A model generated the notes under the pieces. The model was not told the DNA's origin. It did not search any database and worked only from the letters and a program-made list of their open reading frames with translations. Both the position numbers and the translations under genes were made by a program. Of a stretch of DNA of 40,802 nucleotides, positions 596 through 29,066 are shown one piece after another; position 1 is the first letter of the stretch, and each line of letters starts with the position of its first letter. Origin of the DNA: Bacilli bacterium (GTDB lineage: Bacteria > Bacillota_I > Bacilli_A > RFN20 > CAG-826); NCBI GenBank assembly GCA_024695105.1, contig JAILIV010000036.1, positions 1-40,802 of the forward strand, written 5' to 3'.

Positions 596-627
596 AAAAA
601 GGCGGCTTCGCACCGCGGAACCGCCTT
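596..627 (-). terminator. Rho-independent terminator of the TraG-like gene operon
   Basis: On minus strand AAGGCGG...CCGCCTTTTT immediately after the CDS stop at 641. Confidence 0.75.
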
Positions 628-640
628 GGGTTAACGGGAA

Positions 641-2377
641 TCAGTCGTCGTCAGGATCGGCGATCTCGTCGAGTTTCTTCAGCAAGTCGGCGAAGGGATC
701 TTTGTCCCCTTTGCCGCCTTTTCCCTCGGGTTTTTTGGGCTCTTCAGGCTCCTCGACGTCGCTGTCTGGATCCTCGATTTCGATGTCTTCTTCGGGCTCG
801 GGCTCTTTGAAGGCCTTCAAGCCACCGAAGACCTTGTTCGCGAGGTCCTTGTCCATTTTGAGGACGCGCTCGGTCAGGTCGAAGAAATGGTATTCCCCAT
901 CCATCTTCGGGAAAGGCACGGCCTCTTTGGTCAGGAACTGCGTATAACGGGAGATATCCGGCATGAAGGAAACGTAGGGACGGCTGCGGTGCATGAGGAT
1001 AAGGGCTTCCGCGCCGCCTTTGGCGCCCACCACTTTCCGCATGGAGGAAAGCTGCTGATAGGTGATGAGCGGTTCGTTCGAACCATTGCCACGCACGCCC
1101 ACCATGCGCTGGACCTGTTGGATGAGCTGGTCTTCCTTGGTGGAGAGGTATACCCAGTTCAAGCAGTTGGTCTTGATGGTCTCCGCGTCGTCTTTGTACG
1201 TCGCGTGCAGTTGGTTATCGGATTGCACGACCAGGAAGAAGCGCATGTTGCGGCTTCTTGCGGCGGTGATCATCGAAGGCATGTCGGCGATGAAGGGAAG
1301 GTTGGCGAATTCGTCCAACACGAAATTGAGACGGCGGGGCAAGGTGCCACCTTGGCGGAAGGCTTCCTTGACCATCGCGGTGTACACCTGCTTGATGAAA
1401 CTGGTAACGATGAAGTTATAGGTGGAATCTTCGTCCGGAACGATCATGAAGACGGCATGGGGTTTCCCGCCACGGCCGATCGCGTGGATGTCGAAGCTGG
1501 TGTGCGAGGTAAGCGCCATCAGGGAACGCGACGAGGTGAAGGCGGTCACCGAGCCATAGGCGACATCTAAGACGCCCGCCAAGGTCGTGGTCGCGCTTTT
1601 GGTCATGTTCACGGCCGAGAAGAGGTTGTTCTTCAAGGAGCATCCCTCGGGGAGGTCATTGACGAACTGGAGGAGCGTGCGCACGTCCTCGTCGTCATCG
1701 TCAAACCACGAGCTGCTGCTTCCGGTGGGCGATTTGTCCGCGAGTTTGACGCGATCAAGAAGGGTGGACAAGGACCCGGGGTTGCACTCGGAAGGATCCT
1801 TCGCGCCACGGATCATGAGCTCGACCAAGCCGTCGAGGAGTTGGCGCGCGGCGATGGACCAGCTGGGGGATTTGGCGTCCTGCAAACGCGAAGTGATCGC
1901 GTTGACGAACTCGTGGGCCAAGTTCAAGCCGGCTTCCTCTTCGCCGTTATGGAATTGGACATAGGCTTCCTCTAAGGGGTTCCAGCAGTCGCTGTTGGCC
2001 ATGTCGCGGAGGTTGATGACGTTAAGTTCGTATCCCTTTTCCTTTAAGAACCCAGAGGTGCGGGCATAAAGCTCGCCCTTAGGGTCGGCCACGAGCATGC
2101 TCTCGCCCGCAAGGCCCAAGGAGAAGATGGTGGGGAAGATGAGGGTGCGGGATTTCATGGAGCCCGTGGAACCCAAAATGAGGGAATGGTAGTCCTCGGT
2201 GTCGCAATAGATGGTCTTCGTGTCGGAGATCAGGGGCAACCCGGCGGACTTGACGCTGGCGTTGGGGTCGGAGATGTCGACCTTGGTCAACTTGGACTTC
2301 ATCTCCTCTTCGGTGGCGAAGCGGTTCTCAAACTCGCGGTCGCCGACGTAATTGAGGTAACGGTAGTTGTGTTTCAT
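641..2377 (-). CDS. TraG/VirD4-type (type IV coupling protein-like) ATPase without obvious TM helices
   Basis: Motifs YHSLILGSTGSMKSRTLIFPTI, MLVADPKGELY, LNFVLDEFANLPFI (Walker B), FLVVQSDNQL; start at ATG 2377 preceded by GGAGGA; upstream in-frame ATG at 2446 lies within the previous CDS. Confidence 0.85.
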   Translation of the reverse strand: MKHNYRYLNYVGDREFENRFATEEEMKSKLTKVDISDPNASVKSAGLPLISDTKTIYCDTEDYHSLILGSTGSMKSRTLIFPTIFSLGLAGESMLVADPKGELYARTSGFLKEKGYELNVINLRDMANSDCWNPLEEAYVQFHNGEEEAGLNLAHEFVNAITSRLQDAKSPSWSIAARQLLDGLVELMIRGAKDPSECNPGSLSTLLDRVKLADKSPTGSSSSWFDDDDEDVRTLLQFVNDLPEGCSLKNNLFSAVNMTKSATTTLAGVLDVAYGSVTAFTSSRSLMALTSHTSFDIHAIGRGGKPHAVFMIVPDEDSTYNFIVTSFIKQVYTAMVKEAFRQGGTLPRRLNFVLDEFANLPFIADMPSMITAARSRNMRFFLVVQSDNQLHATYKDDAETIKTNCLNWVYLSTKEDQLIQQVQRMVGVRGNGSNEPLITYQQLSSMRKVVGAKGGAEALILMHRSRPYVSFMPDISRYTQFLTKEAVPFPKMDGEYHFFDLTERVLKMDKDLANKVFGGLKAFKEPEPEEDIEIEDPDSDVEEPEEPKKPEGKGGKGDKDPFADLLKKLDEIADPDDD

Positions 2378-2379
2378 GG

Positions 2380-3243
2380 TTAGTCCTCCTCCCCGACGAG
2401 ACCCAACCGGCGGGTCTTCTTCTTGTTTTGGAAAATGCGGGTCCATTCGCCTCCGGGCAAGAAGGAGGCGCTATTCTCCTCGTTGAGGACAAGTCCGACT
2501 TCCTTCTCGGCCTTAAGGGCGCAATAACCCATGTCCAAGGCGAGTTGACGGATGGACTCGATGCCTTCCGAACCAGGGGTATGGAGCACCATTTCGACGG
2601 TCTCGCGCATTTTCTTGCGGAAGCCTTCCTCGAGGGAGAACCCATAGAAGGCGAGGTTGTCTTCCAGTTCCTTTAACCCGGCATCGACGTCTTTATAGGA
2701 CATATGGAGCAGTTGGATGCGCATCGCCAGGTCGAGGCTATCGAAGGCTTTCCTCGAAGGCTCGTCGTTGCCCGAGCGGTCCAAGAAGATGGCCATCGTG
2801 CGGTCATCGATCGTGTCCATGTAAGAAAGGAAGTCGATGAACTTTTTCTCCGACACGGCACCGGGTTTTTCGACCCATTCGGTGATGTCGACGACCAAGA
2901 TGCCGTCATAAGGATGGCTGAAGCGGTTCAGCTCATGCTCAACGGCGTCATAAAGCATTTGGAACGAGGTGAAGTTCGGCTCGTTGGGAGAGGAATACTT
3001 CAGAAAGAAGGAATACACCCTCGTCTCGCTTTCGAAGGCCATGAGCTCCTGGGCTTCCAGGTAGCCCGCCATCGCTTCGAAAAGCTCCTCGAAATCAAAT
3101 CCGTCGTCGGCAATCAGATAGTAATTGGGGAGAGGGACCTTGTTCTCTTTCCCCTTCTGGCGGGAAGCGACGCGTTGCCACTCCTGCCCGATGGCCGCGA
3201 TTTCTTCGTAACCGGGCCGCAGCACAAGTTTTTCAAACTCCAT
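2380..3243 (-). CDS. Uncharacterised protein resembling a degenerate AAA+ ATPase (no P-loop)
   Basis: Single ORF with AGGGGG SD; 'LPNYYLIADDGFDFEELFEAMAGYLEAQ' in the place expected for Walker A and 'YDGILVVDITEWVE...DDRTMAIFLD' in the place of Walker B/sensor 1; stop lies 2 nt before the TraG-like ATG. Confidence 0.5.
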   Translation of the reverse strand: MEFEKLVLRPGYEEIAAIGQEWQRVASRQKGKENKVPLPNYYLIADDGFDFEELFEAMAGYLEAQELMAFESETRVYSFFLKYSSPNEPNFTSFQMLYDAVEHELNRFSHPYDGILVVDITEWVEKPGAVSEKKFIDFLSYMDTIDDRTMAIFLDRSGNDEPSRKAFDSLDLAMRIQLLHMSYKDVDAGLKELEDNLAFYGFSLEEGFRKKMRETVEMVLHTPGSEGIESIRQLALDMGYCALKAEKEVGLVLNEENSASFLPGGEWTRIFQNKKKTRRLGLVGEED

Positions 3244-3331
3244 ATGTACCCCCTAAGTAGACGTTAAAAGAGCTAAGGAAATTGTGCTCTTTTCGCGCAC
3301 GCCTTGCAATTACGTATATTGGAAACCAAGA

Positions 3332-6300
3332 CTATAAAACCAACGCGAGCAACGCCTCCAGCATCACCGAACGGCTTTGTTGGAGTTTCAGCGCCCGGAA
3401 GGGCAAAAGTCGGTTGGAATAATGGCTGGTGAAGCGGTTCTGGTCGTCGACGTCGCGGAACACCCAGGAATCGCAAATGAGGTAACGTACGTCGCGATGG
3501 TGGGCGATGGAGCACAAACGGCTCAATAGCTCCGCCTCATTGACTCCGCCCCGGCGTAACACGTCCGCCTCGTTTTGCAGCGCCTTTAGGAAGAGCCATG
3601 CGTTCACGTAATAACGCTTTTCCTCTTCGCATAGCGCATTCCATTCCGCGTCATATTCGGAAAGGTTCAGTTTCGAATAGGCGGAAGAGGCCTTGGAAAG
3701 GAGGCCCTTGGCTTCCAAAACGGACTTATCGGTAATCGCGTTAGGACCTTTGGCCCAGAAGGACTGCGCGGCCTTGCAAAGGGCGTCGATTTGCGGCGCG
3801 GCGGTGGCAGACAAAGAATGAGGGTGCTTGGCGGGATCGAGTTTCCCTCCGCCCATCGTGAAGGCGAAGAACCGGAACCCTCCCTCGTCGGCCTGGGCCA
3901 CGTGGACGCCACGGTCCATCAAATGGATCCGCAGGAATCCCAACTTGGCTTCGGCTTGGATTTGCTTGGCCTGCTCATGAAGAGGCCCATCGCCTAGGCA
4001 GACGTAGACCGTGCAGCTCTCGGCGGGGAAGGCGTCAGAAGCCAAGATCTTCTTGAACAAGTAGACCAAGCGGCGGAACAAACAGAACGTCTTCTCGTCG
4101 TCTTTCATGGACAAGACGATGTAATCGGGAAGGTTTTTGCGGTTATGGGCAATGGAGTCCACGAACTCGGTGATGAAACCCAATCGGCCAGGGTCTGAGG
4201 CGTTGAACTGGACGTCGGGGAAAGACATGTCGGTCCGTACCGCTTTCGTGCCACCGATCCTTTTCAGCGAATCGCTTAGATTCGTTAACAGTTTCCCGTA
4301 GGAAGTCGTCGTCGTGGAGATGACGCTTTCGCTTTCGAATTCGCGGAGTTTGTCGGTGACGATCGCAAAACTGTGCCGCACACGATATGGGGCGTAATCC
4401 TCGTCACCGTAGATGCTGCAATGGAAGCGGTTGGGCTCCAAGGCGTCTTTCCCGCGCACCTTGTCGTAGGTGTTTACGAAGATCGCCTCGGCGACGGCCT
4501 CGCCCTCCTTCCCAAATCCGAAGCACGTGACGAAGATATCCTTCTTCCCGTCGTCATAGGCGCGGGGGTGGAACACGCTGATGTCCATGGTGGCCTGCTC
4601 GGTGATATTGTGGATCTTGGTCCAGTCCATGGCCACGGAGAACCCTTCCTTGCGGTCGATGGAATCCATGCACAAAGACACCCCAAGGAAGACGTTGAAC
4701 AAGTCATACGCCAAAGTGCCTTTGTCGATGAACCCGGCCGGCAATAGGCAATAATGGCGGCGCAGCCCGTCGTCGCGTTTGGGCGAATAAAGCCATCCGT
4801 CGGCCAAATGGAAACGCATCCAGCGTTGATGTTCCACGCGGGCCAACTTGGCGAAGAAAATGCCGAAGTTCTCACGGTTGTCCCAACGCTTCATCATTTG
4901 GTAGAACGCAGTCCGGAAGCGATACGAAGCCGCGGAAGACACTCGTTTCCATAAGGTATTGCCCCGCCAGGAAGCCAAGGCTTGCGCTTTTTGGTGGGCG
5001 GGAATGCTTTCCCACAGATCGGCTTTGTTCCTAGCGATGTCGCTGGCGCCCCGAGGGACGATGACGCTCTTCACGGCTTTGGGGTTCAAATAGTAAGCAT
5101 GGGCTTCGTCGTTGAACTGGTTGGTCTCCTGGGCGTTGCCATCGGCGACCAATTCATAGACGCGGTTGTAGTTGATCGCGTCGTAGTTCTCGATGATGCG
5201 GTCATATCGATACACGTCCCCATTGTTTCCGATGATGACGATGCGGACGTTGGGGGCGTAAATGAAGTCTTGCTGTTTCTTGGGATTCGCCACGTCGAAA
5301 TCACGGTTGAACCCTTCGACGAGGTTGTTGTTTTTGTCATCCCAGACGTTGACGAACAACGTCACCATGTTCCGTGGCTTGCGTTGGGAAAGAAGCGCGG
5401 CGATGGCGTTAACCACACGTATGGATTCATAGTCATCGCCGGTGGCCACGACGATGTAATCGGGGCAATAGAATTGGCCTGCGCCCGTTTCCCCTGCCCC
5501 ATATTGGTCTTTCTTTTCCTTCCAAAGGGCAGGCCCTTCGCGAAAGAGTTCCGCGAAACCCACTTTCCCAAAGCCACCGTTATGGAAGCAGAAGGCGGGA
5601 AGGGGCATCTCTTGGGCCAAAGCCAGGCGCAATTCCCGAGTGGGCGCGTTGTTGTGCGCGAGGGAATACTGCTTGCAGATGTCATCCAAGGTTTCCTTGG
5701 AGGCGTCCTCATACGTCTTTTGCGGATCATAGCCAAAGGCTTCCGGCGTATAGGAAACGCAAACGGAATAGGGCATTTCCATTTGGAACAAGCCCGCGAT
5801 TTGGGTGAAGCCACGAGGGTCATATACGTCGCAGAAGAAATCCGCGGCCTTGCCTTCGTCGTTGATTTGGGAACTGAAGGAATACAGGGCCTTCGCGATC
5901 GATTGGCCGTTGGTGCCAAAGCCAAGGGACACAACCCACGTGAGGTCTTTGTCCGGGGCCGGCGGGCAATCGCCGTCTGAAGGCGAGGAGTAGATGGCGG
6001 TCTGGGCTTCCGAGGCGATGGAGTCGGCTTCGTTCCACACGTGGATAGAGAACGGCTTGGCGAGCTGCCAGCACGCCTTCTCCCGCGCCAACTTTTCCTT
6101 CTTCAAAGCCTTTGCCGCGCCGATTTTGCCTTGGTCCCCCGACTGGTTCGCCTCCTCAAGCGCGCATGAGGCCATCTTCCACTCATGATGGCGGATGAGG
6201 TATTCGTCGTTGGAAGAAAGGTAGAGTTCACGGAACCGTTTCTCCAGCGAGTTGATTTTGTCTTGGTAGGCTTGGTAATCGATGCGGCGCTTGGTCAAGA

Positions 6301-7855
6301 TGTAGTAGCCGATGTGGGACAAATCGTACCCGTGCCGCAAGTCGGACTTTTTCTTGAACTCCTGAAGGGCGAAGAATTTCTCGTCGGTGACTTTGTCCCC
6401 CCAAGCGTCTTCCAAGCCATGGACGCGAAGGCTGAGGTCACGCTGGTTCTTCAGCCAACGGTAATAGGATTCCTGTTGCTCGTCGATGATGAAAAGCTTC
6501 TCCTCCAACGCGGCGATCTTCTCCTTGATGAAATCGGGGCGGTTGGCGGGGTCGTTGCCCCCGATGCCAGCGAGTTCCTCGATGTCTTTGCGGATCGCCT
6601 CGGCCTCCTTGCCGCGGGAAAGGTATTGCCAATTGCCGGGTTGGCGAAGCTCCAACTCCAAATTCCGCGCCTCGATCTTCTTGGCGATCTTGAGGAAATC
6701 CGTATCACCGGGAGTGCATGCCTCCAGCTGTTTTTCCAACGCTTGGATGTCCTTGCGGATGCACGCCCGATAGGCGCGGAATCCGCGATGGCATTTCGTG
6801 GTCCTGGCCTTCATGTGGTTCAGGCGGTTGTTGATGTCGAGAAGGACGTAATCCATGTTCTCCTCTTCGTTGGGGATGTGGTCGTTATCCGAATCGAAGG
6901 CGAAGACCGTGATGGACGAATATTGCGAGGCCATGCCCGATTTGCTATGGGGCCAAAGTTTCTCGAGGATCGTGTTGGAATCATTGGCGGACACCGACCA
7001 ATAGATGTAGCCATGGGCCATGACCTGGACGCAGTTTTTGTCTTTTCGGTCAAAGGGTTCTAACGCCGAACCGGAGAAAATGATCAACGCGTTGCGGGCT
7101 TTTTCTTGATCGGGGTTAGAAGAGATGGAATCCGCAAGGTTCAAGGTCTCTTCGTTCAAAGCCGTGAAAATATAGATGTCCATCCCCTTGGTACGCAAAA
7201 CGCGTAGCAGCAGGAAAGAGTAGAACTCGTAGGCCAAAGAGGAGCCGATGGCGCTGATGAACACCAGGCCCGCGACCACCGATGTGCCATAGAAGGCACA
7301 GATGAGGAAGATTTGGGAAACGAACTGGGCCCCGTCGGGCAAACCCTCGAACGACAATCCGCCTAACGCGGCATATACGGCGCCAAAGAAGGAAGAGAAG
7401 ACGTCCTTGAACCCCGGATCCATGATGCCTTGGGCGGCCAGATCCGCAGCGGTCGCATTAAAAAGCACCCACGCCTTGAACGCGATGCTAAGCGAAATGG
7501 CAACCGCCACCGTGATCGCCTCACAGCGCAACTTCGCCGTGGCGTGACGCCGCTTGTACACGAGGTAGACGATCATGATGAGCAGATAGAGCAAGGCCAC
7601 GAAGGCGACCGTCAGCAAAATCGCGACGACCCAGCTGGCGACCGGGTGCCAGCGGGAGGAGAGCAAAACCGTGGCCAGCCAATCGGGAAGTTGTTCTACG
7701 TCCGCCGCGAATTGGTTCTCGAGGTTGCCATACCAAAGGAAGAATCCGACCAAAAGCAAAATCGCCGTGACGATGGCGATGAGGAAAGACGAACGGACGG
7801 GCAAATAGAATTTGCGCTCTTTCTTAGGGGAATTGGCGGCAGGCATCGAGCTCAT
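3332..7855 (-). CDS. Large multidomain membrane protein: N-terminal TM/channel-like region, TrkA/RCK-like Rossmann segments, RyR domain
   Basis: Start ATG at 7855 (MSSMPAANSP) with GAGGTG SD; hydrophobic segments in first ~250 aa; glycine motifs VVSLGFGTNGQSIAKAL and FVTCFGFGKEGEAVAEAIF; RyR-like LARVEHQRWMRFHLADGWLYSPKRDDGLRRHYCLLP. Confidence 0.75.
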   Translation of the reverse strand: MSSMPAANSPKKERKFYLPVRSSFLIAIVTAILLLVGFFLWYGNLENQFAADVEQLPDWLATVLLSSRWHPVASWVVAILLTVAFVALLYLLIMIVYLVYKRRHATAKLRCEAITVAVAISLSIAFKAWVLFNATAADLAAQGIMDPGFKDVFSSFFGAVYAALGGLSFEGLPDGAQFVSQIFLICAFYGTSVVAGLVFISAIGSSLAYEFYSFLLLRVLRTKGMDIYIFTALNEETLNLADSISSNPDQEKARNALIIFSGSALEPFDRKDKNCVQVMAHGYIYWSVSANDSNTILEKLWPHSKSGMASQYSSITVFAFDSDNDHIPNEEENMDYVLLDINNRLNHMKARTTKCHRGFRAYRACIRKDIQALEKQLEACTPGDTDFLKIAKKIEARNLELELRQPGNWQYLSRGKEAEAIRKDIEELAGIGGNDPANRPDFIKEKIAALEEKLFIIDEQQESYYRWLKNQRDLSLRVHGLEDAWGDKVTDEKFFALQEFKKKSDLRHGYDLSHIGYYILTKRRIDYQAYQDKINSLEKRFRELYLSSNDEYLIRHHEWKMASCALEEANQSGDQGKIGAAKALKKEKLAREKACWQLAKPFSIHVWNEADSIASEAQTAIYSSPSDGDCPPAPDKDLTWVVSLGFGTNGQSIAKALYSFSSQINDEGKAADFFCDVYDPRGFTQIAGLFQMEMPYSVCVSYTPEAFGYDPQKTYEDASKETLDDICKQYSLAHNNAPTRELRLALAQEMPLPAFCFHNGGFGKVGFAELFREGPALWKEKKDQYGAGETGAGQFYCPDYIVVATGDDYESIRVVNAIAALLSQRKPRNMVTLFVNVWDDKNNNLVEGFNRDFDVANPKKQQDFIYAPNVRIVIIGNNGDVYRYDRIIENYDAINYNRVYELVADGNAQETNQFNDEAHAYYLNPKAVKSVIVPRGASDIARNKADLWESIPAHQKAQALASWRGNTLWKRVSSAASYRFRTAFYQMMKRWDNRENFGIFFAKLARVEHQRWMRFHLADGWLYSPKRDDGLRRHYCLLPAGFIDKGTLAYDLFNVFLGVSLCMDSIDRKEGFSVAMDWTKIHNITEQATMDISVFHPRAYDDGKKDIFVTCFGFGKEGEAVAEAIFVNTYDKVRGKDALEPNRFHCSIYGDEDYAPYRVRHSFAIVTDKLREFESESVISTTTTSYGKLLTNLSDSLKRIGGTKAVRTDMSFPDVQFNASDPGRLGFITEFVDSIAHNRKNLPDYIVLSMKDDEKTFCLFRRLVYLFKKILASDAFPAESCTVYVCLGDGPLHEQAKQIQAEAKLGFLRIHLMDRGVHVAQADEGGFRFFAFTMGGGKLDPAKHPHSLSATAAPQIDALCKAAQSFWAKGPNAITDKSVLEAKGLLSKASSAYSKLNLSEYDAEWNALCEEEKRYYVNAWLFLKALQNEADVLRRGGVNEAELLSRLCSIAHHRDVRYLICDSWVFRDVDDQNRFTSHYSNRLLPFRALKLQQSRSVMLEALLALVL

Positions 7856-7998: not shown

Positions 7999-8565
7999 AT
8001 GCCTGAACTCGAATCTTCTCTTCCGCTACTCTCCGAAGGGCTTGTGGAGGAATTCCAAAACCAACGTAACATCCTCATCACCGGTCCCATCAACTCCGAC
8101 CTTGCCTTAAAGGTGATGATCCTTCTTCGCCATCTCGACAACGAGAGCCATGACCCGATTTACCTTTACATCAACTCCCCGGGTGGCTCGGTTTCCGCGG
8201 GACTTACCATCGTGGACAACATGCGCCTGATCAAATCCCCGGTCCACACCGTCTGCTTCGGCTTGGCCGCCTCGATGGGCGCGGTCATCTTCGCCGCCGG
8301 CGAGAAAGGCCACCGCTACGTCTTGCCTCACGCCGAAGTGATGATCCATCAGCCATGGAGCTCCATCGCCGACGACCTCAAACAAAGCGACCTGGAAATC
8401 ATGTCCAGCCATATGCGTCGCACCCGCGAACGTCTCGAAACCATCTTGGCGGAAGCCTCTGGCAAGACCTTGGAGCAGATGCACGAAGCCTGCGAAAAGG
8501 ACAACTGGCTCAACGCCGAGGAAGCCATCGCGATCGGCTTGGCGGACAAAATCCTCAAGAAGTAA
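7999..8565 (+). CDS. clpP: ATP-dependent Clp protease proteolytic subunit ClpP
   Basis: ITGPINSDLA, YINSPGGSVSAGL, GLAASMGAV (Ser), EVMIHQP (His), EKDNWLNAEEA; SD CAGGGGGAC. Confidence 0.96.
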   Translation: MPELESSLPLLSEGLVEEFQNQRNILITGPINSDLALKVMILLRHLDNESHDPIYLYINSPGGSVSAGLTIVDNMRLIKSPVHTVCFGLAASMGAVIFAAGEKGHRYVLPHAEVMIHQPWSSIADDLKQSDLEIMSSHMRRTRERLETILAEASGKTLEQMHEACEKDNWLNAEEAIAIGLADKILKK

Positions 8566-8567
8566 AA

Positions 8568-9485
8568 ATGAGCCACCCCGCCCTCGCCTCTTTGGAAGAC
8601 ACCCTTTGGGACTTCGTCGCAGGCGAGGACTGCCCCACCTTCTTCGTCCACGGAAACGGCCTCTTGCTACAGGAGGCCTTTCTTTCTGCCCTGACCATCG
8701 CGCATCCCTTATTTGGACGGACTTGCTTCCGTATCGATCAGGAATATGCGGAAGCCTGGAAACCAATCGTCGAACGCTTCGACCTCGCTTCCAAGCAAAG
8801 CCTTGTCACGTTTGAGCTTGCCCCGCTGCAAGAAGAGGAGATACGTGACACGATTCTTCTGACCGACCAAGCCCTTTCCGAGAAAACGATGGCCGTCCCA
8901 AAAGCCATCATCCGCCTTGACGAAGGCGAGCAGGAAGAAGAGACGGAAGAGGAAATGGACGAAGATTACCGCGCCACCGTCGCGTTCATGTCCTTATACG
9001 GAAAAGGCATCGAAGGGTTTACTTTGCCCCAACCGCCCTACCATGTCTTTCCACGCGACTGGCATTACCTAGGGCCTTCGCGCAACATGGGCGCCTATGG
9101 CGTGCTGGAGGACGAGCTTCGACGCGGGCTTGAAAAAGACGATGGCACCTTATGCCCCCAAGAAAGCCACGAAGCGATCCTCAAGGCTTTGCGCGGAGAA
9201 CCAATATCCGGCCCGGCGTTCTATCATGCGCTCCGTAGCTGCTACCGTTCGCCTTGCCTACTTCGCGACATGGCCAGTTACCAGCATGACACCTGGGAGC
9301 TACGGACGCTTGCCTACCACCGCGACCCAACGAGCAAAACCTCCATGTTGGTCCCCTACCCCTTCTTGCTCCAAACCGAGTTAAAGAAAATGGAGGGGCT
9401 ATCGGATGAAGATGCCTTTGGCATGGACATCCTCTACAGCGATTTCCTCATCCCTTTGCTCCATTTACGAAGCTTGCTCTCGTAA
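8568..9485 (+). CDS. Hypothetical protein, translationally adjacent to clpP
   Basis: ATG 2 nt after clpP stop; continuous 305-aa ORF with acidic internal stretch EGEQEEETEEEMDED; no family recognised. Confidence 0.65.
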   Translation: MSHPALASLEDTLWDFVAGEDCPTFFVHGNGLLLQEAFLSALTIAHPLFGRTCFRIDQEYAEAWKPIVERFDLASKQSLVTFELAPLQEEEIRDTILLTDQALSEKTMAVPKAIIRLDEGEQEEETEEEMDEDYRATVAFMSLYGKGIEGFTLPQPPYHVFPRDWHYLGPSRNMGAYGVLEDELRRGLEKDDGTLCPQESHEAILKALRGEPISGPAFYHALRSCYRSPCLLRDMASYQHDTWELRTLAYHRDPTSKTSMLVPYPFLLQTELKKMEGLSDEDAFGMDILYSDFLIPLLHLRSLLS

Positions 9486-10367: not shown

Positions 10368-10396
10368 TGGGTCGGACATTACTCCGGCCCTTTTTT
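10368..10396 (+). terminator. Rho-independent terminator
   Basis: GGGTCGG...CCGGCCC followed by TTTTTT (one G.U pair). Confidence 0.7.
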
Positions 10397-11676
10397 CATT
10401 CTTCAAGAAGATCGGCGATAGATAACGTGATTGGCTCAGGGAAGGACGCTTTCCTTTCATTGCATAACGTCATCACGTGTCCTTCCAAAACGGTAGTTTG
10501 GATGAAATAGCTCTTTCCTTTGTAAACGCATTTCCCATCGGCGAAACGAGAGAAGCCAACCTTAGTGGGCGTGAGAATCCCCTCCCCTTCGCATTTGGCT
10601 AGGGCTTCCTTCGTGGTCCACGCCTTGGCAAAGCTTTCCTTATCCGTGACTTCCTTCGCCTCTTCTTCCGTGAAGGCATGGGGCACCGTGCCCATAGAGC
10701 AACGGGCAATCTCCTCGATATCCAACCCCACCTCATAAGGGGCAGCGTAAAGACCGATGTAATCCCCGCCGTGGGAAAGGCTAAAACAAGGACCACCTTC
10801 TACATATGGTTTCCCTGAAGCGATTAGTGATATGGGCTTGCCGCCCGTGGCTTTCCTTATAAGCAACGTCCCCACGGCGGACCGCGTTTTGTCTTCCAAA
10901 CGAACGTACCGCAACGCCTTTTCCTTTCGCTCCCCCGACAAGACGTCAAATAGACGTTTGGCTTCGGGTAACGCGTCAAATAGACGCACCAAATAAAGGC
11001 AGGGTTGGTTCTTCTTCCCCTTTCCAAGGGCCAATGCGCGAGAACGTTCTAGGCGACGAAGCAAATCATCGGGGTCGTTACGCCCATCCAAGATCATGCA
11101 CACCCAGCTCTTTTTGTTGAGATGGTATCCTGGAAAGACGGTTTTCATGTCCACGTCCTCTGGGTTTCCGCGGAACGCCACGATAGAGCAAACCCCTTCT
11201 TTCGGTTCCCCCACTTTTTCGTAAGGTACCTTCATGAACACCGCATACCATTTACGGTTGTCCTTCCGCCGAATGATTCCGTTTTCATCATCCCAGAGGT
11301 ATTCGATTCCTTCCCCATGATGAGAAAGAAAATGATCCATGAGCAAACCGAATTCCTTACCGACATGGGGCAAAAGGGAATAGCAGCGCTCGCAGATATC
11401 CTTTAAGCGTTCCTTCACCTCATCCCGAATGGAAATGAGGTATTCCCCATGCGCGGATGGCATTTTGTAAAGGTTGTATTCGTCACCCGTCTCATTATCG
11501 ATGAGCCGAGTGTCCATCGTTCCATCGAAATCGATGCTTACGTGCAACGAAAACGTTCCGCCCTGAATGGGAAATTCATGCACGTATGAATCGTTTTCCG
11601 AATGAAAACCATAATCCAGAAGGCGATCGAAAAGAGGTAATGCCCCTTGGATGATTCCTTCTTCGAACTCGGACAT
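10396..11676 (-). CDS. Fusion protein: MmcQ/YjbR-type domain + 4'-phosphopantetheinyl transferase (Sfp-like)
   Basis: N-terminal 'YLWDDENGIIRRKDNRKWYAVFMKVPYEKVG...PGYHLNKKSWVCMILDG' MmcQ/YjbR pattern; C-terminal 'EVGLDIEEIAR...FTEEEAKEVTDKESFAKAWTTKEALAKCEGEGI' PPTase pattern in one continuous frame. Confidence 0.8.
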   Translation of the reverse strand: MSEFEEGIIQGALPLFDRLLDYGFHSENDSYVHEFPIQGGTFSLHVSIDFDGTMDTRLIDNETGDEYNLYKMPSAHGEYLISIRDEVKERLKDICERCYSLLPHVGKEFGLLMDHFLSHHGEGIEYLWDDENGIIRRKDNRKWYAVFMKVPYEKVGEPKEGVCSIVAFRGNPEDVDMKTVFPGYHLNKKSWVCMILDGRNDPDDLLRRLERSRALALGKGKKNQPCLYLVRLFDALPEAKRLFDVLSGERKEKALRYVRLEDKTRSAVGTLLIRKATGGKPISLIASGKPYVEGGPCFSLSHGGDYIGLYAAPYEVGLDIEEIARCSMGTVPHAFTEEEAKEVTDKESFAKAWTTKEALAKCEGEGILTPTKVGFSRFADGKCVYKGKSYFIQTTVLEGHVMTLCNERKASFPEPITLSIADLLEE

Positions 11677-21303: not shown

Positions 21304-23505
21304 TTACTCTCCGGGCAAGTAGACTTTAGGAACCCCCTCACTGCGCCAGAAATCCCAATTTTTGCCAGGCTCGACAAAGTAATAGGAGGCGTGGAAATAG
21401 GTTTTGCCAAACGACTCTTTGATTTTTGCCTCCAATTCGACGCGTGCTTTGGCGCGTTCTTCTTGGTATTCGCGTTCGTCTTCTTCGGAGAAACCAACGT
21501 GGCTGGCGTTGGGGTTTTCCTCAAACGTGAACTCGATTTTGAGGTGGCCTTGCTTGTATTGTTCTTCGCTGCCCATGTAAAGAACGTGCTCAAAGCCGGC
21601 TTCTTCCAAGGCGCGTACATCGAAACGGATGGTGCCTCGCTCGGGTAAAACCAAATACTTTATCCACCCGCATTGATAGAAAGCCCGCGCTTGGATGGTG
21701 AGGTCCTCCGAATGAATCCAAAAGCAGTTGAGGTAACGGCAATTGGAGAAGGCATATTCGCCAATCGTGCGCACCGTATCTTGTAGTTCGATCGTGGCCA
21801 CGCCGGAATGTGAGAATGCGCTCTTGCGGATGTTTGTTGAGGGAACCTTCACAAAGCGGAGGTTTGGACAATCGCGGAAGCTGGAATTACCGACGTCCAT
21901 ATCTGCCTGTATGATCTCGACTTTCTCGAGGTTTTTGCAACCACGGCACACCTCATCAGGAATGGTCGTTTCACGACCCGCAAACCGAATACTTCGAATG
22001 GCGGAGTTCATAAATGCCTGCTCTTTAATATGGCCACAAATCTCCAGACGTTCTTGTGATAACGACGACCCTTTAAAAGCCCTAGCGCCAATTTCATCAC
22101 AAGATGGTGGCAGAGAGAAATCGGTTAAGCCCGTGCAGTTTTCAAACGCGGAATCACCGACGACGCGGATAAGTTTTTCCTTGTAAAGAAGAACGTCTAG
22201 ATTGGTGGGCAAGCCGTTTGCGCTTCGCTTCAAGTGTACGTCGTTACCTTTAAACGTCACCTTGCTCAGATTCGTGCAATTATAGAAGGCGCAGGGCCCG
22301 ATGACGGTCGGGCCGTCAAGAACCACCTCGCGCAGATTTTGGCAGTCATGGAAGCAGCCTTCCGAAATCTCGGGAAAGGTTTCCACCAGTTCCAAACGCT
22401 CAAGCTCATTGCAATAAGCAAAGGCGTTTTTGCCAAGGTGCATTTGGATGGAGTGTTGCTCTTCGTTGGGGATGACGCGCTCCCCTTCCCCCGTCGCGCT
22501 GTCATCGGGGACGAGCCATTCCTCCATCACCGTCTTCAAATCTTCCTCGAATTTTGCGTTTTCGTCCTCTTCATACGTTTTGGCCAAATCGATGGAGTCT
22601 GCTTGGGCCATCCTCTCGCTCAGCGTGGCCACATGGGGGAAATAGATGCGCGCAACGCCACTGCGCTCAAAGGCGGAATCGCCTAAGTGGACGATGCTAC
22701 GCAAATCGACCTCGTGCAATTGGCGGCAATCCGCAAAAGCGTGCGAATCGATCTCCACCACTTTAGAGAGATCAATCTCCTTCAAGTTCATCATGTTCGT
22801 GAACGTCGCGTCACCGATATAAGCAACCTCCACCGGAAGGTTTACGCGGACACAATAAGGGTCATTGCATTGGGCGAGCATCTTGCCCCGGGCCATGGAT
22901 CTGGAATTCAGTAAGTGGATGGACGTCTTATCGTCGATATCAATAATGTTCAAAAGCTTCGTCTCGTCACGGGCGTTTTGGACATAATTCATCTTGCTTT
23001 CGACAGGCGAATCCCCTTCAAGGTAAAGGATGCGCTTCCCAAACGCCTTCTCGACCAGGGCAGTATCCTCTTCGTTTAGCTTCAAGTTGGCTTGGAACGT
23101 TTTGACGATATCCCCGTCCAACAAAGCGTCTTTTTGAAGGACGATGGGAATCAAAGGCTTCCGATACGTCGAAGCCAGGCGGATTTCCTCTAGCACCGCT
23201 TGAGATTTCAAAGAAAGCGCGGACAAATAGATGATGATGCCTTTGCACGCGAACTGGCTAACGAAGTGCTCCGCGTTCTCTAGCCAATCCGTCCCCGGCT
23301 TCATCCCGCGGTCGAACCATATGGCCAAACCACGTTCTTGAAAAGCGAATATGTCTTTGTAAATCGCCTTGTAATCCCCATGGCTATAGGAGATGAAAAA
23401 GAACTCTCCGGCGAAATTGATGGGTGGTATCGCGTCTAAGGCGTAAAGTTCAGCGATGCTTTTGCTTTGGTCGATCTTTTGGAATAGTTCCGCGCATTTG
23501 TCCAT
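21304..23505 (-). CDS. TIR-domain protein with C-terminal BspA-type (LRR_5) leucine-rich repeats
   Basis: TIR: EFFFISYSHGDYKAIYKDIFAFQERGLAIWFDRGMKPGTDWLENAE...IIIYLSALSLKSQAVLEEIRLA; LRR_5: 'IGPCAFYNCTNLSKVTFKG', 'VVGDSAFENCTGLTDFSLP', 'IGEYAFSNCRYLN'; start ATG 23505 with AAAGGGGAG SD. Confidence 0.88.
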   Translation of the reverse strand: MDKCAELFQKIDQSKSIAELYALDAIPPINFAGEFFFISYSHGDYKAIYKDIFAFQERGLAIWFDRGMKPGTDWLENAEHFVSQFACKGIIIYLSALSLKSQAVLEEIRLASTYRKPLIPIVLQKDALLDGDIVKTFQANLKLNEEDTALVEKAFGKRILYLEGDSPVESKMNYVQNARDETKLLNIIDIDDKTSIHLLNSRSMARGKMLAQCNDPYCVRVNLPVEVAYIGDATFTNMMNLKEIDLSKVVEIDSHAFADCRQLHEVDLRSIVHLGDSAFERSGVARIYFPHVATLSERMAQADSIDLAKTYEEDENAKFEEDLKTVMEEWLVPDDSATGEGERVIPNEEQHSIQMHLGKNAFAYCNELERLELVETFPEISEGCFHDCQNLREVVLDGPTVIGPCAFYNCTNLSKVTFKGNDVHLKRSANGLPTNLDVLLYKEKLIRVVGDSAFENCTGLTDFSLPPSCDEIGARAFKGSSLSQERLEICGHIKEQAFMNSAIRSIRFAGRETTIPDEVCRGCKNLEKVEIIQADMDVGNSSFRDCPNLRFVKVPSTNIRKSAFSHSGVATIELQDTVRTIGEYAFSNCRYLNCFWIHSEDLTIQARAFYQCGWIKYLVLPERGTIRFDVRALEEAGFEHVLYMGSEEQYKQGHLKIEFTFEENPNASHVGFSEEDEREYQEERAKARVELEAKIKESFGKTYFHASYYFVEPGKNWDFWRSEGVPKVYLPGE

Positions 23506-23662
23506 AAAACTCCCCTTTGAGCTATGTTCGTCGTCTTCGTCAAAGGATTCCTTAGCGAAATCCATAGGCGGTTTCATATCCATCGTCACGGATGGACGCC
23601 ACTTTTCGTAATTTTCCCACAAAAAAAGCATTCCGCGATACGAAATGCCAGTTTTCAAATAA

Positions 23663-27417: not shown

Positions 27418-27915
27418 ATGACCAAAACCATTTACTTGGCAGGCGGATGTTTCTGGGGCGTCCAGGCCTATTTCAAATTGCTTAAGGGCGTGGAAAGCAC
27501 CCAAGTCGGATACGCCAACGGTACCACCGCCTTCCCCACGTACGAGGACCTAAAATCCGGAAAGGCCGACCACGCGGAAACCGTGAAGGTCGATTACGAC
27601 CCGGATATCATTTCGCTTCAAGACCTCATCGGCCACTACCTTCGCTTCGTCGACCCTTATGCGATCGACCGTCAAGGACACGACGTCGGCCACCAATACC
27701 GGGCGGGCATCTATTACACCGACTTGCTCGACGCCGTGGACATTGAAGTCTACCTCAGCGAACGTTTGGGGAAGGGGCACCATATCGAACTCGCCATGAT
27801 GCGCAACTTCTTCCCCGCGGAAGCCTACCACCAAGACTATCTGGACAAGAATCCCGGTGGCTATTGCCACGTGGATCTAAACCTTGTTAAACCTAACGAA
27901 AGAAAAAAACCATGA
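27418..27915 (+). CDS. msrA: Peptide-methionine (S)-S-oxide reductase MsrA
   Basis: YLAGGCFWGVQAYF active-site motif, VGYANGTT, DPYAIDRQGHDVGHQYRAGIYY, AEAYHQDYLDKNPGGYCH; alternative ATG at 27409. Confidence 0.95.
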   Translation: MTKTIYLAGGCFWGVQAYFKLLKGVESTQVGYANGTTAFPTYEDLKSGKADHAETVKVDYDPDIISLQDLIGHYLRFVDPYAIDRQGHDVGHQYRAGIYYTDLLDAVDIEVYLSERLGKGHHIELAMMRNFFPAEAYHQDYLDKNPGGYCHVDLNLVKPNERKKP

Positions 27916-29066
27916 AACACGAAATCATCGACGGAAGAATCATCTTTCATCCCAAGGGGGCCATTACCTCCACGACCGCCCCGGAAGTGGAACGAGACAT
28001 CGAGAAAACCCTTCAAGGCCAAAAAATTGAGGCCATCGACCTCGACCTAGAGGACGTCAACTATGTTTCCTCGGCGGGGCTTCGCGTCATCTTAAAGTAC
28101 AAGAAGCTCTATCCCGACACCCGGGCCATCAACGTGACCCCCGAGGTGTATGACGTCTTGGAAATGACGGGATTCACCACGATGATGGATGTCCGTAGGC
28201 AACTTTTGGAAGTCAGCGTGGAAGGCGCCAAACTCATCGGGGAAGGCTTCTTCTCCCTGGTCTACCGTCTCGACCACGACACCATCATCAAAGTGTTCCG
28301 CAACGAAGTCCGCATCGAGGAGGTCGAACGCGAATTAAAGCTTGCCAAACAAGCCTTCGTCTTGGGAATCCCCACCGCCATTTCCTATGACGTGGTGCAC
28401 GTCGGGGACCGTCTTGGCGTACGCTTTGAGATGCTCGACTGCGCTTCCCTCCGCGATTGCTTCCGCGACCATCCGGAAGACCACGAAACCCTCGTGCGGA
28501 AATACGCCGAATTGCTCACGACGATCAACACCACCACCACACTAGACCCCAATTTGCCCGATGCACGTGTCTTATGGCTAACCAAGGCCGATGCCTGCGC
28601 CCCCTTCCTTTCCAAAGAGGAGGCCAAAAAACTCAAAGGGCTTATCGAAAGCGTGGAAGACCGTGACACCTTCGTCCATGGCGACTGCCACTTCAAAAAT
28701 ATCATGGTCCAAAACGGCGAACTATTGCTCATCGACATGGACACGCTATCCAAAGGACACCCCATTTTCGAGCTGGCCGCCATCTACGCCACCTACATCG
28801 CGTTCGAGGAGGCTACCCCTGGCAATAACCTTAACTTCCTTGGGATCGATTCGCCTCAGGTGACCACAATCTTCCACGACGTCCTCGCCCACTACTTCGG
28901 GAAGTTCGACGAAACCATCTACGCCAAAATCGCCCTGGTTTCCTATACCCACATGATTTGGTGGAACCAAGTCAATGACCCAACCAACCAAAATAGGCAT
29001 GACGTGTGCCTGCAAAACCTGCGCAAGCGCTTGGCCCAAGTGTCCGATTTGGATATCGGAAAATAA
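27912..29066 (+). CDS. STAS domain fused to APH-like phosphotransferase/kinase
   Basis: STAS: LDLEDVNYVSSAGLRVILKYKK; kinase: GEGFFSLVYRLDHDTIIKVFR, FVHGDCHFKNIMVQNGELLLIDMDT; ATGA overlap with msrA. Confidence 0.85.
   Translation: MKHEIIDGRIIFHPKGAITSTTAPEVERDIEKTLQGQKIEAIDLDLEDVNYVSSAGLRVILKYKKLYPDTRAINVTPEVYDVLEMTGFTTMMDVRRQLLEVSVEGAKLIGEGFFSLVYRLDHDTIIKVFRNEVRIEEVERELKLAKQAFVLGIPTAISYDVVHVGDRLGVRFEMLDCASLRDCFRDHPEDHETLVRKYAELLTTINTTTTLDPNLPDARVLWLTKADACAPFLSKEEAKKLKGLIESVEDRDTFVHGDCHFKNIMVQNGELLLIDMDTLSKGHPIFELAAIYATYIAFEEATPGNNLNFLGIDSPQVTTIFHDVLAHYFGKFDETIYAKIALVSYTHMIWWNQVNDPTNQNRHDVCLQNLRKRLAQVSDLDIGK

Follow-up and report, generated by a model that had tools for sequence, protein, structure and literature searches.

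A recurring bacterial gene cassette that combines ClpP, a P-loop-less AAA+ protein with a docking-type tail and a VirD4-like ATPase

In the window, 40,802 nucleotides of a Bacilli contig, a clpP gene lies beside three genes on the opposite strand, two of which encode an AAA-like protein devoid of a P-loop and a VirD4-like ATPase, and these two recur together with clpP in related genomes. We estimate a probability of roughly 60% that the combination encodes a dedicated ClpP protease, in which the dead AAA+ protein would dock on ClpP and couple it to a VirD4-type motor. A literature search that mostly left out subscription papers returned no report of ClpP joined with VirD4 or of the cassette, and PADLOC detected nothing beyond weak similarity to mad8 and a ThsB-like neighbor in one genome (G524). 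This recurring bacterial cassette of ClpP, a dead AAA+ protein with a docking-type tail and a VirD4-like pump is apparently undescribed.

The original prediction had singled out the three minus-strand genes as a unit, and its coordinates, strand and 2-nt gap between the AAA-like and VirD4 genes were all reproduced (Table 1). Its claim that each gene carries a good Shine–Dalgarno (SD) sequence holds for the VirD4 gene, which is preceded by GGGGAGGAGG, and for the AAA-like gene (TAGGGGG), but less so for the long gene, where the SD-like CGAGGTG is the weakest of the set; clpP has AGGGGG. An intrinsic terminator past the VirD4 gene had also been proposed, and a hairpin with a T run is indeed present there. 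The 305-residue protein encoded next to clpP matches a homologue in another genome of the genus (G018) at 44%, where it likewise adjoins clpP, and it aligns with the 1192-residue protein of G030 (29% over 170 residues, E = 1e-15).

Table 1. Features of the cassette and its flanks; positions are those of the window unless a locus is named.
Feature	Position	Strand	Basis
TerB-like gene, 5' end lost at contig edge	1-522	+	46% to G018 gene; weak PF05099
Terminator-like hairpin and T run, 3' of VirD4 gene	602-616	-	Sequence scan
VirD4/TraG-like ATPase, 578 aa	641-2377	-	PF02534 8e-35; NF045973 2.5e-72
P-loop-less AAA+ protein, 287 aa, proposed ClpP-docking adaptor	2380-3243	-	AlphaFold and Foldseek; Walker A absent
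LGL docking-type tripeptide, residues 280-282, in disordered tail 277-287	2398-2406	-	Homologue alignment; pLDDT <50
Large membrane protein, 1507 aa, lineage-specific module, proposed sensor	3332-7855	-	RyR profile match; homologues in G018, G024
Second RyR-like motif, RLEHQRYVRSLIADSWTF, near C terminus of large protein	3458-3532	-	Alignment with G018
RyR domain core LARVEHQRWMRFHLADGW of large protein	4736-4855	-	PF02026 0.0023; profile to RyR structures
N-terminal membrane region of large protein, residues 16-211	7223-7810	-	Hydropathy
ClpP peptidase, 188 aa, divergent neighbor, proposed core component	7999-8565	+	PF00574 1.2e-57; alignment
305-aa protein, directly 3' of clpP	8568-9485	+	Homology to part of type-B first-gene product
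FtsK-gamma-like winged-helix proteins and one small FtsK, 3' of VirD4	L086 11392-12953; L088 3474-5380; L089 11915-13417		

The distribution of clpP among relatives ties it closely to the other genes. In a search of 61 relatives, the AAA-like gene is present in six genus genomes (G000, which is the genome of the window, and G018, G021, G024, G025 and G030), and a short VirD4 gene occurs in the same six, in line with the expectation that the trio genes recur together. clpP is found in exactly these six of the 31 genomes of the genus and was not detected in the other 25, one of which is rated 100% complete. The chance of such a match between clpP and the AAA-like gene is 1 in 736,281 if the two are independent, a figure that ignores kinship in a set where G025 and G030 are near-identical. 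Since the genes co-occur in exactly six genomes and clpP adjoins the trio in five of them, we conclude that clpP very probably belongs to the system. The original prediction had used clpP as a mere landmark, but it proves to be a constant partner, and a housekeeping neighbor was rejected as an explanation because 25 of the 31 genus genomes yielded no clpP. In the sixth genome, G021, a tandem clpP pair (L056 7441-8537) lies on another contig (C17) beside a VirD4 gene and another middle protein of 302 residues ending in GFGFRIDEE; the upstream clpP copy has its catalytic Ser and His replaced. The alignment shows the Ser-His-Asp triad to be kept in the window copy and in every other cassette ClpP except this one extra dead paralogue.

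The cassette extends well beyond the genus. At the level of the order, clpP matches led to three loci (G035, G043 and G048) in which genes for ClpP, a 517–554-residue protein and VirD4 follow one another in that order. A profile of this middle protein, searched blind to gene context in samples of the order and class, retrieved 10 further full-length copies, and ClpP is encoded immediately upstream and a VirD4-like protein immediately downstream of all 13. These cassettes span six families (f1, f3, f8, f12, f23 and f27). A draw of 392 genomes from the phylum contained no full-length match outside the class, and plasmid and phage records gave no match to this protein.

Although neither type of middle protein carries a recognizable Walker A motif, both are modeled as AAA+ proteins. 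The 287-residue AAA-like protein has no sequence-family match, and its profile found nothing significant among PDB sequences. Its AlphaFold model (pLDDT 77, pTM 0.69) was matched by Foldseek to AAA+ ATPases, with CbbX as the top PDB match (E = 8.6e-07, TM 0.62). The near copies are 38–61% identical overall to the window protein; the pattern GxxGxGK[ST] was found in none of the six copies, and the expected P-loop site of the window protein reads YYLIADDGFDFEELF. As modeled, then, the protein is an AAA+ fold without a P-loop, which bears out its earlier description as a P-loop-less AAA-like protein. The longer middle protein of the wider cassettes is weakly Sel1-like in its N-terminal half, and its C-terminal half is modeled as a Lon-type AAA+ domain (pLDDT 87, pTM 0.79), for which all 50 PDB matches listed are Lon (best E = 1.4e-07); Walker A was not found in these Lon-type proteins either. 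Neither middle family thus supplies the AAA+ partner with Walker A and B that defines a Clp ATP-dependent protease. A comparison of the two families by hhalign, made with shallow alignments, detected no homology. Because they have no detectable sequence relation, dead AAA+ proteins were either recruited to this position on more than one occasion or have drifted too far apart for a common origin to show.

What the middle proteins share is a short hydrophobic motif at the C terminus. The AAA-like protein of the window ends in RRLGLVGEED and its homologues in KRLGLVGGDK, RRLGLVA, YYMGLVGE (twice) and FYMGLIGD, so that the tripeptide is LGL in three copies and MGL in three, with G281 and L282 invariant. 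Of the 13 Lon-type copies, 12 end in YGF, LGF or VGFGF, YGF being dominant, and the one from G082 has IGH; the unrelated 302-residue protein of G021, a singleton, ends in GFGF. A [hydrophobic]-G-[F/L] tail is therefore present in 19 of 20 middle proteins from three sequence-unrelated groups, against a background of 20 in 461 other proteins (4.3%) that carry one within the last 15 residues. Both AlphaFold models show the tail as disordered (residues 520–529 in the Lon-type protein). Clp ATPases dock on the hydrophobic (H-) pockets of ClpP via (L/I/V)-G-(F/L) on a flexible loop (PMC8745299). The YGF tail falls outside the strict L/I/V consensus. In the lineages with YGF, the LYINS of housekeeping ClpP is replaced by IQINS or LQINS, and its LPN or LEN mostly by TEN. 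We take the altered sites to be the pocket residues Tyr62 and Leu114 in E. coli numbering, and the changes suggest, at the level of sequence, a co-adaptation of pocket and tail. Mainly because motif, disorder and gene linkage agree, we read the middle protein as a predicted, and likely, ClpP-docking adaptor.

In the dedicated protease that we favor, ClpP would be the proteolytic chamber, and the dead AAA+ protein would form a ring, dock physically on the ClpP rings and cap them through its C-terminal tail, as ClpX, ClpA and ClpC do through their IGF/IGL loops, and would give specificity. The soluble VirD4-family ATPase would be an ATP-driven pump whose power stroke would thread substrate proteins, possibly ones encountered on DNA, through the ring of dead AAA+ protein and on into ClpP. 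We put VirD4 feeding ClpP at about even odds. VirD4-family ATPases are motors of DNA and of type IV secretion systems (T4SS); to our knowledge they have not been known as unfoldases, and all known ClpP machines use active AAA+ unfoldases. In common with ClpXP, ClpAP and ClpCP, the cassette has a ClpP chamber with catalytic residues and an AAA+-fold partner with a tripeptide like (L/I/V)-G-(F/L). It differs from them in that the AAA+ protein lacks a P-loop, that the tripeptide sits in a C-terminal tail rather than an internal loop and that a VirD4-family ATPase, itself without a docking-type tail, is always encoded alongside. The cassette would then be a variant of the ClpP protease and, if VirD4 is its motor, a new kind of machine. 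If true, this would broaden the accepted view of what can power a compartmental protease, and would explain both some orphan VirD4/TraG genes that are usually annotated as conjugation and the ClpP genes of lineages from which ClpX has seemingly been lost. It also makes a precise prediction, a docking tail of about eight residues.

The VirD4-like protein of the trio scores just below the model cut-off of the NCBIfam CD1115 family (NF045973) and retains the DE of Walker B. Its Walker A reads GSTGSMKS, and all near copies conform to G[SA]TGSMK[ST], in which Met takes the place of the final Gly; Walker A in the wider family is ordinary (for example, ATRLGKT or STGSGKT). Several VirD4 genes of the wider cassettes are followed at their 3' side by genes for FtsK-gamma-like winged-helix proteins (5e-07, 2.3e-05 and 3.9e-05, under the curated cut-off), to which G488 adds a small FtsK, and these neighbors point to DNA as the track of the VirD4 motor. 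A fuller version of our proposal would be an ATP-dependent protease of a wholly new category, with ClpP driven by a hexameric translocase of the VirD4/FtsK-HerA type in place of an AAA+ unfoldase. Dead AAA+ rings, drawn on two or more occasions from separate AAA+ clades, would serve as its adaptor, and the whole would possibly track along DNA to strip and destroy DNA-bound proteins. We advance this version tentatively, with the odds leaning against it. Several points count against the dedicated ClpP protease that we favor: the departure of YGF from the consensus, the single IGH, the Met in Walker A, the role of VirD4-family ATPases as DNA and T4SS motors, the winged-helix neighbors, the undetected homology between the two middle families and the ClpA-like proteins described below (G000, G024 and G035).

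The same winged-helix and FtsK genes fit a second arrangement, in which the dead AAA+ ring alone would open the ClpP gate and select substrates, and VirD4 would be a DNA translocase carrying the protease towards proteins bound to DNA. By analogy this resembles PafE/Bpa of the mycobacterial proteasome: PafE/Bpa and Mpa dock by a C-terminal hydrophobic motif, and PafE/Bpa, a nucleotide-independent ring with a QYL tail, works free of nucleotide (PMC5515868). The cassette differs from both in its peptidase and in its VirD4 partner, and from PafE/Bpa also in its fold. We consider such an ATP-independent activator unlikely: it leaves the constant linkage of VirD4 to the dead AAA+ protein unexplained, and the window, G018 and G024 have no FtsK-gamma-like winged-helix gene directly 3' of VirD4.

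The hosts might alternatively supply an ordinary unfoldase. Most of the genus shares a strong AAA_2 match that is ClpB-type (TIGR03346, 1090 bits, below the cut-off of 1232, with the N-domain absent), and five copies examined have no IGF/L loop in the second AAA domain. In G018, G021, G025 and G030 no strong AAA_2 match was found besides this one, so at the sensitivity of the search these four genomes show no ClpX, ClpA or ClpC; with genomes that are 61–95% complete, this does not amount to proof. ClpA-like AAA_2 proteins of one kind, with an N-terminal FIIEGNI-like motif, are present in G000 (contig C66), G024 (contig C11) and G035, in the last case within the cassette operon. It is thus conceivable that the ClpA-like protein of Ter-type operons is the unfoldase and that the dead AAA+ protein and VirD4 regulate ClpP or act on it otherwise. 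None of the three proteins shows a clear extra IGF loop, however, though in the G000 copy TSNIGF occupies the usual place in the fold, and with the four genomes above yielding no strong match of this kind we judge the idea to be improbable.

The original prediction put the large membrane protein at the center, as the channel of a RyR-channel/TraG conflict cassette with clpP as an incidental neighbor. The modules themselves are real. About four hydrophobic segments are confined to the first 211 residues, followed by a long soluble region, and a RyR match that remains under the cut-off with a single sequence in Pfam (PF02026, 0.0023) reaches 1.3e-09 over two stretches when a three-sequence profile is compared with a RyR structure. 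The RyR half of the RyR/TrkA label thus stands. For the TrkA/RCK half, which has no family-level support, the protein gave no Pfam or NCBIfam match and showed the hydrophobic segments and, by eye, a Rossmann-like GFGTNGQ motif. As the core of the system, the channel was rejected. Its full form occurs in three genomes, with full-type homologues only in G018 and G024 among the 61 relatives; an unrelated protein of 1192 or 1270 residues replaces it in the other three trio genomes (type-B loci), and it was not found in the wider cassettes. A 785-residue relative with the membrane region, Rossmann-like parts and one RyR-like motif is encoded in G030 (C2) and G025 (C48) (L011 7833-17411 and L012 291-9752), where it adjoins a STAND-like ATPase and a protein of 1421–1860 residues that begins with a TIR-like motif. 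These neighbors would suit a conflict system, yet the co-inheritance of clpP with the AAA-like gene, together with the missing channel, makes that reading very improbable.

Genome-wide searches support the earlier proposal that the TraG-like ATPase does not belong to a T4SS. The relaxase family PF03432, the only relaxase family searched, was found in none of 12 genomes (the six with the trio and six others of the genus), and the positive control was detected. A VirB4 (CD1110) homologue was not found in G000, G018, G021, G025 or G030 and is present in G024 on another contig; five of the six genus genomes chosen for ordinary VirD4 genes of about 800 residues do have VirB4, and those genomes lack clpP. 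With no PF03432 relaxase detected in the six trio genomes, and VirB4 found in just one of them, the VirD4 gene is not accounted for by conjugation. The protein shares the motor domain of VirD4/TraG coupling proteins (CD1115) but, unlike them, has no N-terminal transmembrane helix by hydropathy, no detected relaxase, mostly no VirB4, and fixed ClpP and dead AAA+ partners. A decayed conjugative element that happened to retain its coupling protein, as nearness to the CD1115 conjugation family might suggest, was rejected on these searches and is scarcely credible for a cassette that stays intact over several families. In G341 and G487 the cassette is flanked by a ribosomal protein gene and rpoB, the former being rplL at some sites.

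The original prediction also allowed that the genes might belong to a larger known secretion locus. A larger locus does continue beyond the contig edge, but it is Ter-like signaling and contains no secretion system. After the trio, G018 carries a convergent TerB gene and genes for a 1737-residue LRR protein, four vWA proteins, a PP2C and a kinase. The window contig starts inside the counterpart of this TerB gene, which is convergent with VirD4 as in G018. On contig C66 of the same genome, the right end (L099) encodes a 2127-residue LRR homologue, 32% over 1646 columns to that of G018, and then vWA and PP2C genes. Synteny makes it probable that C66 and the window contig were once adjacent, and the window accordingly covers just a portion of the locus. 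In G025, genes for vWA, kinase and PP2C proteins are also found close to the type-B trio, and in G482 those for vWA and kinase proteins come before ClpP. The TerB-like, vWA (TerY-like in Ter), PP2C and kinase genes after the trio, in G018 and partly on two contigs of G000, are a likeness to Ter-type stress loci; in contrast to these, the core triad stands without Ter genes in G081, beside a ribosomal protein operon, and in G082, and it is likewise on its own at the rpoB sites of G341 and G487. The genes for RyR, TerB, LRR, vWA, PP2C and kinase proteins are additions particular to individual lineages. To the dedicated ClpP protease that we prefer, the RyR protein of the window lineage would be the likely sensor of a ligand or of membrane state and the Ter-like module (TerB, LRR, vWA, PP2C and kinase) the likely regulator, the two together switching the protease on; this division of roles is our guess from domain content.

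With MADS, the cassette has in common a weak profile similarity of its VirD4-like ATPases to mad8 (8.9e-06 and 1.1e-07), and the trio proteins matched none of the remaining MADS components. TIR-type genes lie upstream of the cassette in G524, the genome with the ThsB-like neighbor. In the window, about 12 kb from the cassette, a minus-strand gene (21304-23658) encodes a TIR domain (8e-10) fused to BspA-type LRR repeats. Two further fusions are encoded there, an unusual combination of a STAS domain with an APH-type phosphotransferase (27912-29066, plus strand) and a YjbR-like region joined to a 4'-phosphopantetheinyl transferase (10396-11676, minus strand). A separate gene that by eye is PPTase-like adjoins clpP in G024.
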